Source: Membranipora membranacea
Lineage: Eukaryota; Bryozoa; Gymnolaemata; Cheilostomatida; Membraniporidae
DNA length: 64,000 nucleotides
Assembly (NCBI GenBank): GCA_914767715.1
Contig: OU612070.1
Span: 25,470,025 to 25,534,024, forward strand
Direction of reading: 5' to 3'
The notes beneath the pieces were generated by a model, which had not been told where the DNA came from, did not search any database, and saw nothing but the letters and a program-made list of their open reading frames with translations. This document shows, piece by piece, positions 6,628 to 62,014 of this stretch (position 1 is its first letter; each line of letters opens with the position of its first letter). Both the position numbers and the translations under genes were made by a program.

Positions 6628-9600
6628 ATGGATAGATTGGGTAAGTGTTGTTAATATTCACTGTGAAAAATAATGTCTTGTCAACCAGCAAGAGTAGAGT
6701 GCACTTTAAAACAAAGGCCTTGTTTGGTGATCAATAGGCAAATGCGCCGACCTGTTCCACTGTAATAAAATTGATTATTAATAATCAATGTAAAACCCCA
6801 TACCAGTTGAGAGCTATACTGCGTATGTTACCTCGGCAGACTCTCCCGTTTCCCCTACCCAGTGACTTAGCCACAACCACCAATGTGTGTCACATCAACC
6901 TCACTCAAAACCGTTAGTAGTATGTCCTTTGCCCAGTTGTACACCTTGAACATATTTGTTCCCTCCATGGGGGTGGAGTGATTTATTTGAAGTCAGGTAT
7001 CAAGGCGCCATGCCAGCTGGTGGCCCTTGAGATTCAGCCTTTTTGGTATTCCTGCGCATTCACAGAGGAAAACACACTTGTTCTACAGTACACTGCCTTG
7101 CAGCCTCCTGATACTCATCTAACAGCAGCAGAGCTATCTACATATATGTCACTTGAGCTGTTGCTTTGAGTTGCAGGGAAGTCGGGGCACACCTGGGGCA
7201 TCAACAGAGCCTAGCTGCAGCGGAACTCAAACCCGCCACTGAGTTACCTCCTACTTTCTAAAGCAATGTTTGTCATCCTGGAAGGAATGCTTAATAATGT
7301 AGCTTCAAATACTAGCACTTGCAGGAGTCTGAGCCCTTAGACTATTTACAAGAGCTTTCTTTTATCAGCCATTTAACAGAGTCTTCATTATCCTAATCTA
7401 AATAACTGCCACTTGCAATTTCAAGTCACGAACTTTGTTTTCAAAATTGTTGCAGATCACAATGTGAGACTGAGAAGGACGGTGCTGTTCAACAGGTTCC
7501 TGTTAGCGAATATGCACAAGCCTAGAAACCAGCGAATGCACACTGTATCTTACTGTCTCATGAAACTGCCGAACAGCAACAAAGTGATTCTAGTTCAGGA
7601 CACTGAAGAAGAAACTGCGGATTGGAATTTAGTAAATGAGATCTGCCAAAATATATCAAATAAGTGTCCCCGAGACATACCAGCTGGATCTTTGCTGACA
7701 ATATTTATGAACTTTACAAGTCGCTACTTGGGATCAGAGGCTTTGCGGAGTTTGGTCAATCAACACAAGTTTAGGCTGGATGTCATTGTTGCCTCCCCAT
7801 ATCAATGCTATCGGAAATCATGCAATGAGTGCTCGCTTGCATTTAATGCCGAGTCCCAAGTACTTGTTAAAAACACTATGGCATTGAAAGATCTGATGGC
7901 ACTTGATGGCGTTAATGTTCGGGCGTTCAGCCTGCATGACTGGTGCCGTTTAGTCCATCTGATCAAAGAATGTGATACACTTACTGGTCTAGTGGAAGAA
8001 TACAGTGAGCAGAAATATAATGAGCGATTCTCTCCAGACAAAGATGTGGTTCATGGTAAACCAGCTGTTCGCAAAGATGAAGACATACGCGTAGTTAAAG
8101 ATCTGGAGTTCATAAGGTCAACAAAAAGGCAGGACTTGCGTGATCAGATCAGATCTTTAGAAGGTCAGAAGATTGCAAGTTTTGGTTTGACCAATCCGAG
8201 GGAGCAACTCCATCTGCTGCTCCGTATTATAGAATATTCCTTGTTGTTATTTGGGAGGTGCTTTTCTAGTCACTGTTAGACCAGTGAATTTGGGATTTGT
8301 TTTAAACTCCCTGGTTAGACAAGTTTGTTTCAATTTACTATTTAAAGATTAAAAATATTTAACAACTTTAAACGATTGTTGCCTCTGCCTGTATTGCCTT
8401 GCAAACTGAATCACTCTGCAAATTATTCTCATATTATTCTTCTCATTCCAGATGGTGAATCAATCATTTCTGCAGGGGGCGCAGAATGCAGCAGAATCCC
8501 ATCGACTGGCAGACCAGTTAGGAAAAACCTGGAACCAGAGTTTCAGCTCATTGACAGTAGAAATACTACGCAGAGGCAGGAAATTTTGGATATGTTCATC
8601 AACTCAGGCCTACATGGAGCAGACTGGCCGAGAAAAGCCTTCTGTGTGCTGAGACTTCCACTGACAGGCCAAGTTTGCATATTGGAGAATGACAACCAAG
8701 AGCATGTTGAGGACAAGTTGATGAAACTACTCGCTGCAGATGACATTGATGTATGGGAAACAGAGGAAGAGACCCCTCTTACACTTGTCGTATACACAAA
8801 TATTTCGAGTTGCTTCAAGTGTGTTGAAAAGCTCATAACTTTCACACAGAAATACAAATTGCATCTTGAAATAGTTGCGGCCGCACCATATGATTGCAAA
8901 AGAGAAAGTTGCTGGACCTGCTATGTTGCTGCAAAGTACCGCTCTAATGGGGCTCTTTTTAACAATACAGAAGCTCTAAGGGAACTTGTCAATGCAGACA
9001 TAAAACTTCGAGGATTTCAGTGGAATGACTGGAGTAACCTAGTGGCTTTGATCAACGAAGCACCCAATGTAACAGGTATTATTCTTTTTATTTTTTTAAT
9101 ACTCTTTGTGGCAATCTGAATTCTGCCCCATTGTCCTAAATAGCACACAGTATTATTGCAATAATACACAATAAGTAAGCAACAGCAGTATCCATTATTG
9201 TTATCTTAGATAGCTAATATTCGAGCACAGAATGAAATTAGCCAAATCACATTTTCACAACCTGTGCTGTAACAGGAAGGAAAGGAGATGGAAAAATTAT
9301 TGTCAGGATTGTTAGATTTTCTAAAAGTAGGGTTCCACAAATCTGAACGGTGATAGTATGAAATAAGCTGAATAAATAAAACAAACTTTAATGTTTTATC
9401 ATGAGCTGATCTACTAAGCCCAAGTCTTCAATGTGGATAGATAGTTATCTCCTCTTGTACCCATAGTAATCAAGCCCACCACATCTTCTGTTTGCCTATT
9501 TCATGTACAGGTTCAGCCAAATATACCTTTGACATGTACGCAGTCAAAAGGTACGGAGTTGGACATCCAAAATCAAAACCTAAGAGTTTGACGAGATATG

Positions 9601-9653
9601 AGGAAGATGAATGCGTTAAGAAGGATTTCGAATTCTACACTAAACAAACTTGA
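6628..9653 (+). CDS. Two-domain AID/APOBEC-like cytidine deaminase
   Basis: Predicted 495-residue protein from four exons: 6628-6640 (MDRL), 7456-8163 (N-terminal domain), 8452-9075 (C-terminal domain), 9511-9653 (basic tail, stop TGA). The phases close exactly. The C-terminal domain has the deaminase zinc motif H325-V-E327, then a beta strand LTLVVYTN and C361-F-K-C364, then LHLEIVAAAPY, a cysteine-rich loop, and the helix EALRELVNADIKLRGFQWND. This is the order and spacing of AID/APOBEC proteins, where the family motif is PCxxC; here the residue before the first C is S. The N-terminal domain follows the same strands and helices but has D60 and N62 for HxE, and R94 and G97 for CxxC, so it cannot bind the catalytic zinc. 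Both domains carry a Cx4CxxC cluster (C122/C127/C130; C389/C394/C397). There is no signal peptide, so it belongs with the classical rather than the secreted branch. The least certain junction is the donor at 8163 (AAG|GTCAGA). The substrate is unknown; relatives act on single-stranded DNA or RNA. Confidence 0.85.
7155..7260 (-). mobile_element. SINE-like fragment in deaminase intron 1
   Basis: The block GCAGGGAAGTCGGGGCACAC at 7174-7193 is nearly identical to 33804-33826, and it is followed by AACTCAAACCCGCC, a decayed reverse-complement B box. It is read on the minus strand as a tRNA-headed SINE copy, older than the one near 33.8 kb. Confidence 0.55.
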
Positions 9654-11248: not shown

Positions 11249-12984
11249 TCAAAACCTGTGCACCATGTACACGCACTCTTCATTCTTAAGCCCAAACTTC
11301 TCATAAAACGGTATCTTTTCAGTCTCGCAGTCCAATGTCAGTTTATAACAGCCAGCGCTCCGAGCTAGTTTCTTGGCAACCAAGACTAATCTGTAAAAAC
11401 CAATTAAAAGAAATGAGCGTGTAATTCACACTGATACACGTAGCGCGTTCCACATGAGATAGAGTGAACTTTCCAGATAATGATTGTGATATTATTATTG
11501 TGTCGATGATTTGGATATGAGGTCGTCTTTGAATGTAAGTTAATGAGTCATCATGCTAGGATAAATCCTTTTATAAAAAAACAGTGCCTCACAGGGGAAC
11601 TGATGTCGTATTTTAACAGCGAAGCACATTGAGGCACAAGCACTAAGCATGGGCTGCGATCTGATAATAACAGCAAAGAGTTCTACATTTGATATAAAAC
11701 AGGTCATCATGGACACATAACTTACAGCTTGCCAAGTTGTTTGCCTCTGTATGATTCATCGACTACTACATCTTCTATCCTACCACGTGATGCACAGCCC
11801 CTGATGAATTTCTTTTCAACAGCTAAAGAACATGAAGCTACAATGTCTTTAGTGTTTGTATCCTCGATGACAAATGTGAAATATGTACCTGCACACCGCG
11901 ACATCTCATCAAATCTGGCTGTAATGATAAACCATGTAAATAATATGAAAAGCAATGCTGGGTATAACATTTCTTCTCTATATCATGCAATCAGCAATTT
12001 TAACAGAATTGTTTGAAGATGACATGGTAGTTCTAACTGAGATAATCAACATAGAGAGCAATTACCAGAGGTTTAACAATAATACAGGTATCTCAAGTCT
12101 TAATAGTATTCTATCTCTCCCACAGGTACAAATTGTCCCACATCATGCAATAACAAGGATGTAGTGAAATTAAGACTAAAATTATGAACCACTCAATAAC
12201 TTTAATAGCTAAATTACCTTCAAATAGCTCTTGGGTATGCTCTCCTGGCGACGTTAATTGTCCTAATAACTTATAGTAACCTAAAACAGTATTATAAAGA
12301 TGCTATATAATGTTCCTGTGTGATGTATGTAATAATTGTTATACATTACGATGTTATTTGGTCTGAAAAAAAGCAGTTAAAGTCATAAACCAAACACCTT
12401 ATGTTAGATCTGTCTGAGCAATATGGGGGAGAGGGTTTTAGTTTAAGAGTCTAGGGCAGATTTGTGTGATTGCACAATGAATTGAAAGCTTTGTCAAAGA
12501 TGCAAGGAGATGGATTCATTTACATGTAAATTACCAAATAACATTCTGATTTAAAGCTTTGAAAACCAGACAAAGTGAACTGACAAAGCACTGTTTGTTT
12601 TTATGTGAGATGTTCTGACATGTGACAAGGACAACTGAGTAGGTGAAACAAAACTTATAAGTTAGAGGATGAGTTTTTCATAGTTCCACCCACTTCTACT
12701 CACTATATCGTTAAGGACCAGCAGGAAATTTGAGCCTATCTTTGACCCAGCATGACAGTAAGGGCAAAGGTCTAAATTTTACAGTATAATCCAAATCAGC
12801 TGGAGAAAGTTATGATAATTATAGAGTCAATAAACTTACCGTGATTATAATCATCTCTGCTAAGTGGTCTCATATGAAGATTCTCTCCTGGATCGTTCTG
12901 TGTAATAGCAGGGTTGAAACTAATACCTTCAAGGTCCTCAAAATCTAAACCTCTCAATAACTCCTCGTCAAATATCAGTGCCAT
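11249..12984 (-). CDS. GNPNAT1: Glucosamine 6-phosphate N-acetyltransferase
   Basis: GNAT-fold enzyme that acetylates glucosamine-6-phosphate with acetyl-CoA on the route to UDP-GlcNAc; cytosolic or on the cytosolic face of membranes. Exons on the minus strand: 12984-12840, 12280-12218, 11918-11726, 11390-11249, giving 180 residues (human protein 184). The first exon starts MALIFDEELLRGLDFE and has NPGE-type and RPLSRDDYN sequence as in the human protein. The third has FIRGCASRGRIEDVVVDESY followed by RGKQLGKL, the acetyl-CoA pyrophosphate loop (Q/RxxGxG/A type). The last has GCYKLTLDC and IPFYEKFGL. The chosen ATG gives an N-terminus aligned with the human one. Its product supplies UDP-GlcNAc, a precursor of the UDP-GalNAc used by the GALNT enzyme in this window; that link is only metabolic. 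The gene is head-to-head with the MLH3-like gene, 3.4 kb away. Confidence 0.93.
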
Positions 12985-37100: not shown

Positions 37101-40100
37101 CATGTGTAACTGACAGTATTATAACAACAAAATAAATAAGCCCTAAAGTCAAAGAGGTGTTCACTTCTCATCACTTTATCAGAGTATTGCGGTGAAAAGT
37201 CTAAGCTGATTGGTCAGGCATTATTTGTTGTTAGGCCTCACCTGATTGGAGCAAGTGGGTGTGATTTCCTATTCTCTATTTCAGTATTGGTCAGAGAATC
37301 CCACTTAAACACCAGATTCCAGTCAAATCCACCCTTCAGATTTCCAGCAGCCGCCACATAATCAAAGTTATCCATATTAATAACATCAATCACTGGGGAC
37401 ACAACTGCTTTTCTGTTCTAAAAATACAAAAAGCAATTGGATAAAATAATTATATAAGCCTATGTACACTATATGTTATACCTTTGGAAAACCTGACATC
37501 CGAGTATGCTAAACTTCTGGAGATATGAATTGACCCAAATATTTAGTATGAGAAATTGTTTGTGATGAAGTTGATATTTAGAGTATAGCTGACACAGTGT
37601 GATGAGTAAACTATAAACTTATCACATTCCCAGCATTAATTTATAGATACAGAATAAAGGCAACAGGTAAGTGATAATTAAATCACTTTCATGACAGACT
37701 CTTATCAACCTGCAACTTCCTACTATCAAGCTGTATTTATTTAATCCCTACAACTATCTGAAAACTGGTAGTTATTTGTTATTAGCCTTGCCCAGTAAAT
37801 TTCTTGATCGGCAAACCAATCACATTCCCATACCAGGTACACCATACAATGCCACAATATTGTGAAACGAACTTTAGTTTGGCAGGTACTACGGACTCTG
37901 GGAGTGTATTCACCATGTAGGTGTACTACACACTACATTATAAAATGTATATATTTATATATATATATTATATATATTAATAATGGCACTGAACCACACT
38001 ATATACTCACCACATATATCCTGTGTAGTAGCGGTTCGAGCCACTGCTCGTTACATTCACAATGGCTGTCCAGGAATGTCAGTACAGCACCTTGAGCTAT
38101 GTCAGCTCCTTTCACTCTGGACCTGATCAGACCCTCTCTCTTAGCGTTACGTATCACCGATACTTTATCTATAGCTGATAACGCTTCACCATCGGATGCT
38201 GTAAAATAATATGCGACAGAATAAACGGCTACACAAGTACCAGGAAAAAAGAGAGTCAACAGGTGGTTCATTTGTATTTTTCAACAGTCAGTTGTCACCC
38301 GTCACCACAAATAACTAACTCAATACAACAAGACAAACATAGAGCGATGTCAAATTACAGTCTTGTGTATTCTGGAGAAAATATAGTAATTCAAGTGGGA
38401 TTGTGTCATAGAATATACCTGTGCCAGCATGATTGTGTCAAGTCACGAGGGACATTGAAATGACAGTGATGTATAGAACCCACATCAATGCCTACGGACA
38501 TACCTGTGAAGATAAATTTTTGTTGAATGGGGTGTAACACCCGAAATATGGCCACTGAAGTTATCATTGGTTTCCAACATTCACAATATTATGACCATGG
38601 AAGCTTACCCCAAATAAAAAACAGGTTTTATTCACGGTTCATAAAGATGATTTGGACATTAATTACAATATGTCACTATAAGAGGTAAATTATACCAGTC
38701 TGATATTCAGATTGTATGTTGCCAAACAACATTCTCACTTTTCCGCTTCGTTGACGTTCGAGAATCACACAGGGTCATTGAAAAAGGTAAAACTATTCCT
38801 GAATTTTGAGGATAATTCGGCATTTAGAGCAGTCTATATTAAGTAGAGACCTTAACTTTAGCTAGGGATAACACCAAAGTGACCTAACAAGGCAAGACTG
38901 CTAGGCTTTGCTTATTAATATTTGGCCATTCTCTTGATCATCACCCAGACTGGGGACATAACAAAAATAGTGATGTGCATTGAGGAACCTCTCTGCAGAT
39001 AAAGTTACCAGATAAAGCTGTGGTAAGGGTGAGACAGGGAAGGAAGCAGGAAGACAAATTGTTTGAGCGATAACAAATCATCTCCAAATATAGACACTGC
39101 TCATTGTTAATCGCTATCAAGCTGCCACATAGGTAGGCTCTATGTAGTCGTTTTACGCAGCTACTTGTTTTGGGGGTAACCCAAAACCCCAGAACAAAAG
39201 AAGAAGCCGTGTGAAAAGGCTAGATTCTATGTGGTTAAGATGATAGAGCATTACCAGATGATATACTGAGCTCAGCAATATTATAGGGTTGAATCCCTTC
39301 CGTCTTAGCATATACATTTACAGACCATGACTGTGAGAGCGAAAGTATAGACTTACGGTCATCACTGAAATCATCGACTAGTATGATCTCTTTAATTAAG
39401 GACGGAGGACTTCTATTCAGTACACTGACTATAGTCCTGAGTAAGGTAGATCGAGCCTCGTTATAATATGTGATGATGACGCTCGTGTCCGGTAATGATT
39501 TTATATCAAACACTTCTTTGGCACATCTGAAAGCAGATAAATGGATTGATCGGTTATGCGTTTCTATCATTTTATTTATCACTGCTATAGATCTGAGTAA
39601 TTCCATCATCTTTAGGGAAACAGAGTGAGAGAGCAAGAGTACTTTGCTCCTCAGATTCAGTGATCGACATCTCTTATATCCTTGATTGGATCAGGAATGA
39701 GATACTGCTAGCCTCCAGGCCAGCCTGCAGTACTCTGGATTGATACAGATGAATGTCATTCAGTTAATAAAGGGTGACTGTCAGCACATTATTTTCAGAT
39801 AATAAAAATATAAACTCTTACTAGATCCAATTATCAGGTTTGGGGCAGGGCCAAAGAGTTTTTTGCACATCACATAGAACATCACAGTTCTTGGTGTAAA
39901 TACACTGGAGCTATAGGATGAATATATTGAATACCATTCATTCATCAGTCCCAAGGTTACAGTTCCGAGAATCAGTCCATCATAACAGACAAAGGGCTAC
40001 ATTGAAACCTAATCAATCATTCCAGCTGACAGAACTTTTGATGCAATTAACAATAATATCTATGTTAATCCCTTCATACATCGATAACAATATCCTGATA

Positions 40101-60616: not shown

Positions 60617-62014
60617 CAATCACTCAAGTCGTGACTAACTTATAAAGTAGTTCGATGCACACACTCTCTGTGAAAGGGCTTTCAACATTATACACATTAT
60701 AGGATAATAAAGAGTAGATAGTCAAGTAGATAACAATTCTGACATCGAGAGCTTATCAATACATATGACTATATATATTGTCGAGCTGCTACTATATCTA
60801 AAATTATTCAGTTTGACTTAGCTTTAGACTACAGAGTAACTAACTAAAATTTGCAGAAGCTGCAGTTACTTTTCACAATCACAAAGTGATATCCTGTATT
60901 ATGGAGGGATTCCCACATATCCATATCTGATATTCTTCATGTTTGAGTTTGGTTGTTAGAAAATGTTACACAATCTGTGTATATATTATATTCTTAAAAT
61001 TTATGAAGAGTTGAAGTTTGAAGTTGTTTCATGCTCTCATGCCAGGAAATGCAATTATCCAGAGTTTCTATTTTTCTACTTCGGTGTCTCACAGTGGCTT
61101 TTTCTTTCTTTGTCGTACAATTTCTTCCCTTGATAGCCTAGACTTTATTTTATCGTTTTATCATTTTAACCAGTATTTGACTCATCAATCTTGTTACAGT
61201 TAGATCCATAAAAAACTATTTATTTTACTACTGAAACTAAGAGCGACAATTTTACGTTATATATCCAGAATATGCTGCTCTTACTTATTTTGCTTTTTTT
61301 GAACCGTTTAATATGATTTAATATTTTGTTTCTCCACCAACAATGCATCATGGTATTGAATCGTAATACTCATGTCTAGTAAGATTTGCATGTGTGTGTG
61401 AATGTTTTGGAACAGAGCGAGTAACATATATGTTTAGAATTTTCCTCAGGTATTATTGGTGGTGATACAAACAATTCAAGCACACGACTCCAAATATTCA
61501 TGTTGTTTTCCTTCATTAATTCTTATGCAGATGTTGTTTTCTTTATTGATATAAAATACAAAACTATTAAAGCCAAAGACTCAAAAAATAGTAAGATATA
61601 AATGCTGTGTTGTATCAGGGAGGGTGGGAGGGGTATATCCACCCTCCCTGAGTGAGTTGTTGAAAAGTATATTGACAGCCCAGAGTCAGTTACTATCGTG
61701 ACTATCGAGAACGTAATGGCACTGGAGTATACCTTAAAATATTCACAACTATTTTCATTACCCTGAATGCATCAATACTGAGACAACAAAAATTATAATG
61801 TATTTACATTCGGTTGTTTTTAAAATTATTCTCATCTATGGCGTAGTAATGAATGATTATGCCTGACAGGTCATTTTGGTGAAGGCTGCTATATAATAGC
61901 AAAAAAATAACTGCAGTCTAATTCTGTCACTGTCCCGAGTTTACTTGGAAAATTATGGTGCATACATGATATATGATAAAACTTTATGTATATGCTGTAA
62001 TCAATTTTGTTATT
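60617..62014. other. Convergent intergenic region between GTPBP2 and DUF885 genes
   Basis: 3' flanks of two genes. AATAAA at 60706-60711, 90 bp after the GTPBP2 stop, is a candidate polyadenylation signal. A hairpin lies at 61615-61651. I see no coding exon. Confidence 0.55.
61615..61651. repeat. Hairpin, GGAGGGT...ACCCTCC family, copy 2
   Basis: TCAGGGAGGGTGGGAGGGGT is followed by ATATCC and ACCCTCCCTGA. Same arms and centre as 51005-51050; a G-rich strand that could also form a quadruplex. Confidence 0.7.

Follow-up and report, generated by a model that had tools for sequence, protein, structure and literature searches.

A bryozoan AID/APOBEC-like gene that joins a predicted pseudodeaminase domain to a catalytic-type deaminase domain

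We analyzed a 64,000-nucleotide stretch of chromosome 6 of the bryozoan Membranipora membranacea (assembly tzMemMemb1.1), referred to here as the window, which contains a gene for a two-domain protein related to the AID/APOBEC deaminases. The gene lies on the plus strand at 6628-9653 and has four exons with 495 codons followed by TGA. All three introns are in phase 1 with GT..AG boundaries, and splicing yields exactly 495 residues and the TGA stop, in agreement with the length of the protein predicted in an earlier note made from the letters of this DNA alone. H325-V-E327, C361-F-K-C364, the LHLEIVAAAPY strand and the EALRELVNA...GFQWNDW segment are all present as described there. The positions of the features are given in Table 1.

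The C-terminal domain (C domain) scored above the Pfam gathering cut-offs of four deaminase profiles: NAD1 (PF18778; 40.5 bits, cut-off 27), APOBEC_N (37.5, cut-off 25), SNAD4 (34.8, cut-off 27) and APOBEC4 (32.4, cut-off 27.2). The first score does not single out NAD1, since three sister profiles pass too. The N-terminal domain (N domain) had no match to a deaminase profile of Pfam, its only match being a sub-threshold one to Imm57 at 12.7 bits. The Pfam APOBEC3 profile reached 20.1 bits on the window protein, under its cut-off of 27, and an NCBIfam scan gave a single sub-threshold match only. The two domains align with each other over 221 amino acids at 25% identity (pairwise E value of 1e-24). 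When the fold of each domain was predicted, the best Protein Data Bank (PDB) matches of both were AID/APOBEC structures, and both had the AID/APOBEC element order b1 b2 a2 b3 a3 b4 a4 b5 a6, in agreement with the strand-helix order that had been read from the sequence. Both halves are therefore AID/APOBEC-like, the C domain by profile, the N domain by homology to the C domain, and both by predicted fold.

The AID/APOBEC motif has been described as HxE and two Cys ligands that lie 24-36 residues apart (PMC5956068). The C domain keeps the catalytic His and Glu and both Cys, with 33 residues between HVE and CxxC. Immediately ahead of the first Cys, the C domain has Ser360, and Thr stands there in P0004, a live-type relative of the C domain (52% identity) that also has part of the pre-domain linker (P.VR.NL.P) in common with it. 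The paralogues L009-L016 and L019, described below, have SPC at this position, unlike the window C domain. Because the C domain lacks the Pro of PCxxC, we regarded the window protein as a divergent homologue, not a canonical AID/APOBEC member. A search with the full-length protein gave no match at E <= 0.01 among 6393 candidates; exon 3 alone recovered two proteins, and a four-row alignment recovered seven, those two included. P0003 and P0004 carry a precomputed Pfam label, PF18785 (which we take to be Inv-AAD), and hmmscan of the same proteins with the current Pfam lists no PF18785.

The N domain, in contrast to the C domain, has neither the catalytic Glu nor any of the three zinc ligands: T58, D60, R94 and G97 stand for His, Glu, Cys and Cys. 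The earlier note missed this; the protein has catalytic residues in its C domain only. P0005 is a 99% copy of the N domain. Three N-type relatives from another source (P0006-P0008) are 49-51% identical to the N domain as whole rows and 42-45% in the core, have the tail SPDK..VH.KPAVRK.ED in common with it, and cluster with it at 100/99 in the tree. In these relatives SAE takes the place of HxE and both aligned Cys are missing. Since the N-type relatives are also without the His and both Cys, the N domain looks like an old pseudodeaminase and not a case of recent decay; most of its ligand loss probably predates the split from the source of P0006-P0008, and the domain has probably been retained since. 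On the other hand, P0006-P0008 retain the Glu of HxE and a Cys one residue ahead of the first lost Cys, so that their loss is less complete than that of the window N domain, which weighs against this interpretation.

In the tree, the N and C domains as sisters had support of 61/51 and a p-AU of 0.393, and were neither supported nor rejected. Kinship of the N domain with L017 and L018, two dead paralogues described below, was not favoured yet not rejected (p-AU 0.082). The N core is positively charged, with a pI of 9.2. Positive charge was considered as the basis of nucleic-acid binding by the N domain and dropped because P0006-P0008 are acidic, with a net charge of -10 to -15 as rows. Nucleic-acid binding by charge thus does not appear to be a conserved feature of the N domain, a point against the function proposed below.

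The genome sequence searched for paralogues comprised 339,339,785 bases in 18 contigs, and the published total for tzMemMemb1.1 is 339,374,674 bases in 21 scaffolds (PMC10290214). With the C domain as query there were 15 matches at E <= 0.001, of which three were exons of the window gene and twelve were other loci, giving a family of 13 loci found, the window gene included. The queries L016, P0002 and L018 gave no locus in the genome beyond those found with the C domain. When 10 paralogue frames were scanned, NAD1 was the best profile for 7, and the family has clusters on C10 and C7.

Seven of the twelve other loci have a single open domain that carries HxE and SPC..C: L009 (as HME), L010, L011, L012, L014, L015 and L016, the last with four extra residues between the Cys of the catalytic motif. 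L013 has the motif with an in-frame stop further on, and in L019 the motif halves lie in separate frames. L020 copies the second half of L019 in inverted orientation, with 95% identity across 3682 aligned bases. The aligned block starts downstream of the L019 HxE frame, which was not matched by blastn (E 1e-10) in the 5.5 kb fetched at L020. The two near-copies are at C5:10022107 and C5:10068628, 46 kb apart. The two remaining paralogues are dead: L017 (C4:1992013-1992939) has none of the three zinc ligands and keeps the Glu, and L018 (C2:22647403-22648942) keeps one of the three. In both, the CxxC insert, the loop-1 His and the tail discussed below are retained, and the two form a group with support of 100/99 and 97/93.

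When the flanks of the other loci were scanned with profiles (mostly about 5-12 kb on each side; about 3 kb at L013 and L020), none yielded a second full domain, and the window gene is the only tandem two-domain member found in the family. The sole hint of a second domain elsewhere is a 33-residue fragment of the start of a deaminase domain upstream of L014 (C7:8339206-8339460, minus strand).

Besides the catalytic motif, the family has conserved Cys and His residues of its own. A CxxC in the loop-7 insert, between strand 4 and helix 4, is present in 12 of the 14 Membranipora domains (two in the window and twelve elsewhere); of the other two, L013 has CxxH and the insert is missing from L016. 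Of the 13 domains in which loop 1 was seen, 12 have a loop-1 His (as in SGxHG), again with L016 as the exception, and P0004 carries both the loop-7 CxxC and the loop-1 His. A tail His, 6-10 residues before a conserved Arg, occurs in every one of the other 14 rows in which a tail was recognised, but not in L016; P0004 as predicted stops before the tail, and no tail was found near L019. The CxxC, loop-1 His and tail His are retained in the window N domain (C6_N), L017 and L018, in which the catalytic ligands are gone or nearly so. Since L019, L017 and L018 are without the Cys that precedes the insert, the motif is CxxC and not C-x4-C-x2-C. We predict from these conservation patterns that the loop-1 His, the loop-7 CxxC and the tail His form a second, structural C2H2 zinc site.

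The co-loss in L016 was analyzed in an alignment of 17 rows, with the stop-bearing L013 left out and P0006-P0008 uncovered at loop 1. Twelve columns (filled in at least 10 rows) were conserved, showing no more than one exception among the 15 rows besides L016. Three of these twelve differ in L016, namely the loop-1 His and both Cys of the insert; in the nine columns that L016 retains, the conserved residue is never Cys or His. Random placement would give exactly those three columns in 1 in 220 draws, a figure computed after the pattern was seen and with the two Cys of one missing insert treated as separate.

Several points weigh against the metal site. The co-loss argument comes from one paralogue, L016, and in a leave-one-out control C6_N, L018 and L019 each departed at three columns as well, of other kinds. 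The three paralogues without the Cys before the insert reduce the motif, and the insert itself was of low confidence in the predicted models. On these grounds the loop-1 His, CxxC and tail His could instead be structural contacts, or a disulphide with unrelated histidines, an explanation that we consider a serious one although somewhat improbable. L016 loses only Cys and His columns among the conserved ones while keeping nine others, which speaks for a metal, and no signal peptide was evident by eye in the gene model, which makes a disulphide less likely.

We then considered divergence between paralogue pairs. L014 and L015, on the minus strand at C7:8337983-8338723 and C7:8460166-8460921, are much more diverged in the coding domain than in introns and flanks: 145 of 607 aligned sites differ in the domain (23.9%), against 72 of 1414 in introns and flanks (5.1%). 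Five of the six indels between them are multiples of three. Either diversifying selection or an exchange of the domain through gene conversion would account for this island. Self-mutation by the deaminase was also considered as its cause and was dropped, the differences comprising 66 transitions and 79 transversions. Point estimates of omega were 1.34 for L012/L013 (upstream sequence included) and 2.91 for L019/L020 (six differences only).

The case for diversifying selection has several points against it. Over 207 codons the omega of the L014/L015 domain was 1.18 with a bootstrap 95% range of 0.80-1.91, not significantly above 1. Synonymous divergence is raised in the same domain, which allows gene conversion, and the omega of L015/L016 was 0.50. 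The island is not general, because L012 and L013 show like divergence in and around the domain.

AID/APOBEC enzymes are best known from vertebrate immunity. Invertebrate AID/APOBEC-like members have been described from sea urchin and Lingula (PMC5956068), and the window gene, in which the earlier note had rightly recognised an invertebrate double-domain protein of this kind, belongs to a bryozoan. The architecture is not new, a point that the note missed: LaAIDL1 of the brachiopod Lingula anatina, published by Liu et al. in 2018, has two tandem deaminase domains and is a mutator in E. coli (PMC5956068). The likeness lies in the tandem two-domain architecture of an invertebrate AID/APOBEC-like protein. 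However, LaAIDL1 has His and Glu in both active sites (H81, E83, H298 and E300; PMC5956068), whereas the window N domain has neither, and the His-to-His spacing is 217 residues in LaAIDL1 versus 267 between the matching positions of the window protein.

The mammalian double-domain APOBEC3 proteins (A3B, D, F and G) likewise join an inactive N domain to an active C domain (PMC6994475). The predicted folds of the window domains match, and activity of the window C domain is predicted. The window N domain differs in being without a catalytic zinc ligand, and the APOBEC3 profile falls below its cut-off on the window protein. The loop-7 insert and the tail that mark the bryozoan family are not known from any APOBEC3. 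Because both window domains carry this insert and tail, the two-domain protein was likely assembled independently of mammalian APOBEC3.

Other families resemble the window gene in part. NAD1 is the best C-domain profile, above its cut-off, but has been described from ray-finned fish, coelacanth, amphibians, lizards and marsupials (PMC8201067). The sea urchin SpAIDL genes are also a multi-locus invertebrate AID/APOBEC-like family and were seen in immune-cell transcripts, but SpAIDL1 and SpAIDL4a have only 193 and 194 residues, and five of the nine loci are inactivated by frame shift in the reference (PMC5956068). The C domain passes the SNAD4 cut-off; SNADs have a signal peptide (PMC11004436), and none was evident by eye in the window gene model, the exon 1 of which is inferred.

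Taken together, we hold with moderate confidence that the gene encodes a bryozoan AID/APOBEC-like protein of two related domains, a dead N domain with a role in binding or positioning nucleic acid and a cytosine-deaminating C domain, with a probable role in defence. The predicted reaction of the C domain is cytosine deamination on single-stranded DNA or RNA. The N domain would no longer catalyse and may instead bind nucleic acid or partners, or oligomerise, by analogy with APOBEC3G, whose CD1, though inactive, has an important part in nucleic-acid binding, oligomerisation and packaging (PMC6994475). The second structural zinc would hold the substrate loops and the tail in place whether a domain is live or dead, and the targets of the protein would be viruses or mobile elements.

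As for the targets, the protein could be an editor of its own transcripts or genes, like APOBEC1 or AID, and not antiviral, which we judge unlikely but far from negligible. The sequence offers nothing to distinguish self from foreign targets, and Liu et al. raise self-editing as a possibility for their enzymes (PMC5956068). Against self-editing stand the many loci of the family, the clusters on C10 and C7 and the fast-diverging pair. Multi-locus, clustered and fast-diverging families are more typical of defence genes.

Less probable still is that both domains are non-catalytic, the C domain keeping zinc and having lost activity as described for APOBEC2, and that the protein is a nucleic-acid binder or regulator. 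The change of the conserved Pro to Ser360, with Thr in P0004, is the main sequence reason to doubt the activity of the C domain; the genome has two more dead paralogues, L017 and L018; and the zebrafish APOBEC2 orthologue is reported to be without deaminase activity (PMC8201067). However, the C domain and P0004 keep all three zinc ligands and the Glu, although ligands were lost at least twice elsewhere in the family (in the N type and in L017/L018), which suggested that the C-domain ligands are under selection.

The gene model enters here as well. Splice donor 2 (AAG/GTCAGA) is weak, and the similarity of exon 2 to P0006-P0008 ends, by eye, right past it. That two neighbouring single-domain genes are present instead of one double-domain gene, with the exon 2 frame continuing to a stop at 8279 and a second full domain found at no other locus examined, is unlikely, since the exon 3 frame has no Met ahead of the first helix of the C domain and so needs an upstream exon, the gap between exons 2 and 3 is only 288 bases, and the phases fit, as does the point at which the P0006-P0008 conservation stops. 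Exon 2 is 236 codons long and symmetric (phase 1-1). Its skipping would, given this symmetry, leave an in-frame single-domain enzyme.

Table 1. Features of the AID/APOBEC-like gene in the window.
Feature	Position	Strand	Remarks
Exon 1	6628..6640	+	MDRL plus one base; donor TGG/GTAAGT; inferred from consensus donor and phase only
Exon 2	7456..8163	+	N-terminal domain and tail, probable pseudodeaminase; 708 nt, phase 1-1; from homology to the exon 3-4 domain, predicted fold and relatives P0005-P0008
N domain loop-1 His25	7515..7517	+	Proposed second-zinc ligand
N domain T58-A-D60	7614..7622	+	Where H-x-E is expected
N domain R94-YL-G97	7722..7733	+	Where the CxxC catalytic zinc ligands are expected; aligned Cys pair also gone in P0006-P0008
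N domain loop-7 insert C127xxC130	7821..7832	+	Proposed second-zinc ligands
N domain tail His204	8052..8054	+	Proposed second-zinc ligand
Exon 3	8452..9075	+	Linker and C-terminal catalytic-type deaminase domain
C domain loop-1 His295	8613..8615	+	Proposed second-zinc ligand
C domain H325-V-E327	8703..8711	+	
C domain C361-FK-C364	8811..8822	+	Ser360 (not Pro) before
C domain loop-7 insert C394xxC397	8910..8921	+	Proposed second-zinc ligands
Exon 4	9511..9653	+	Family-specific C-terminal tail and TGA stop; aligns with the exon 2 tail and paralogue tails
C domain tail His467	9564..9566	+	Proposed second-zinc ligand

In the rest of the 64 kb, tblastn gave no other convincing deaminase copy; a match of the C domain at 60775-60927 (minus strand, E 0.081) was rejected as noise, its frame being full of stops. 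ARAGORN found no tRNA in the window, and Rfam at the gathering threshold found nothing there. The deaminase gene is adjoined on the opposite strand by exons of a GNAT acetyltransferase at 11252-11982 (Pfam Acetyltransf_1, above the cut-off in the frame at 11725-11982 and below it in the frame at 11252-11425). Further along the minus strand, at 39238-39690, lies a polypeptide GalNAc-transferase exon, the best PDB sequence match of which is GALNT2 (E 1.4e-16). Elsewhere in the genome, a 14,741-base contig contains mitochondrial reading frames, named by reading of the frames.

As far as we searched, the family in bryozoans is new, as are its conserved N domain devoid of catalytic zinc ligands, the separate dead paralogues and the predicted second zinc. 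No report by title of a bryozoan APOBEC or a Membranipora cytidine deaminase was found in the open-licence literature, most subscription papers being outside this scope, and no report of a second zinc joining APOBEC loop 1 and loop 7 was among the matches listed for one wording in the same literature.

Tentatively, and at somewhat less than an even chance, these features could be joined in a bryozoan branch of the AID/APOBEC family in which a C2H2 zinc holds together loop 1, the enlarged loop 7 and the tail like a clamp. Because the second site, not the catalytic one, would hold the substrate face in such proteins, catalytic domains could become stable zinc-clamped pseudodeaminases, and the window gene would be a fusion of a dead and a live domain with a division of labour like that of APOBEC3G, separate from mammals. 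The live, dead and fused bryozoan forms would suggest that the APOBEC3 design of an inactive partner and an active enzyme arose more than once. Loops L1, L3, L5 and L7 ring the catalytic centre and are believed to govern substrate recognition (PMC11004436). A second zinc tying loop 1 to loop 7, if true, would be a new way of shaping the catalytic site, with possible relevance to deaminase engineering. Because M. membranacea is a common encrusting colonial animal, these claims are open to direct tests.
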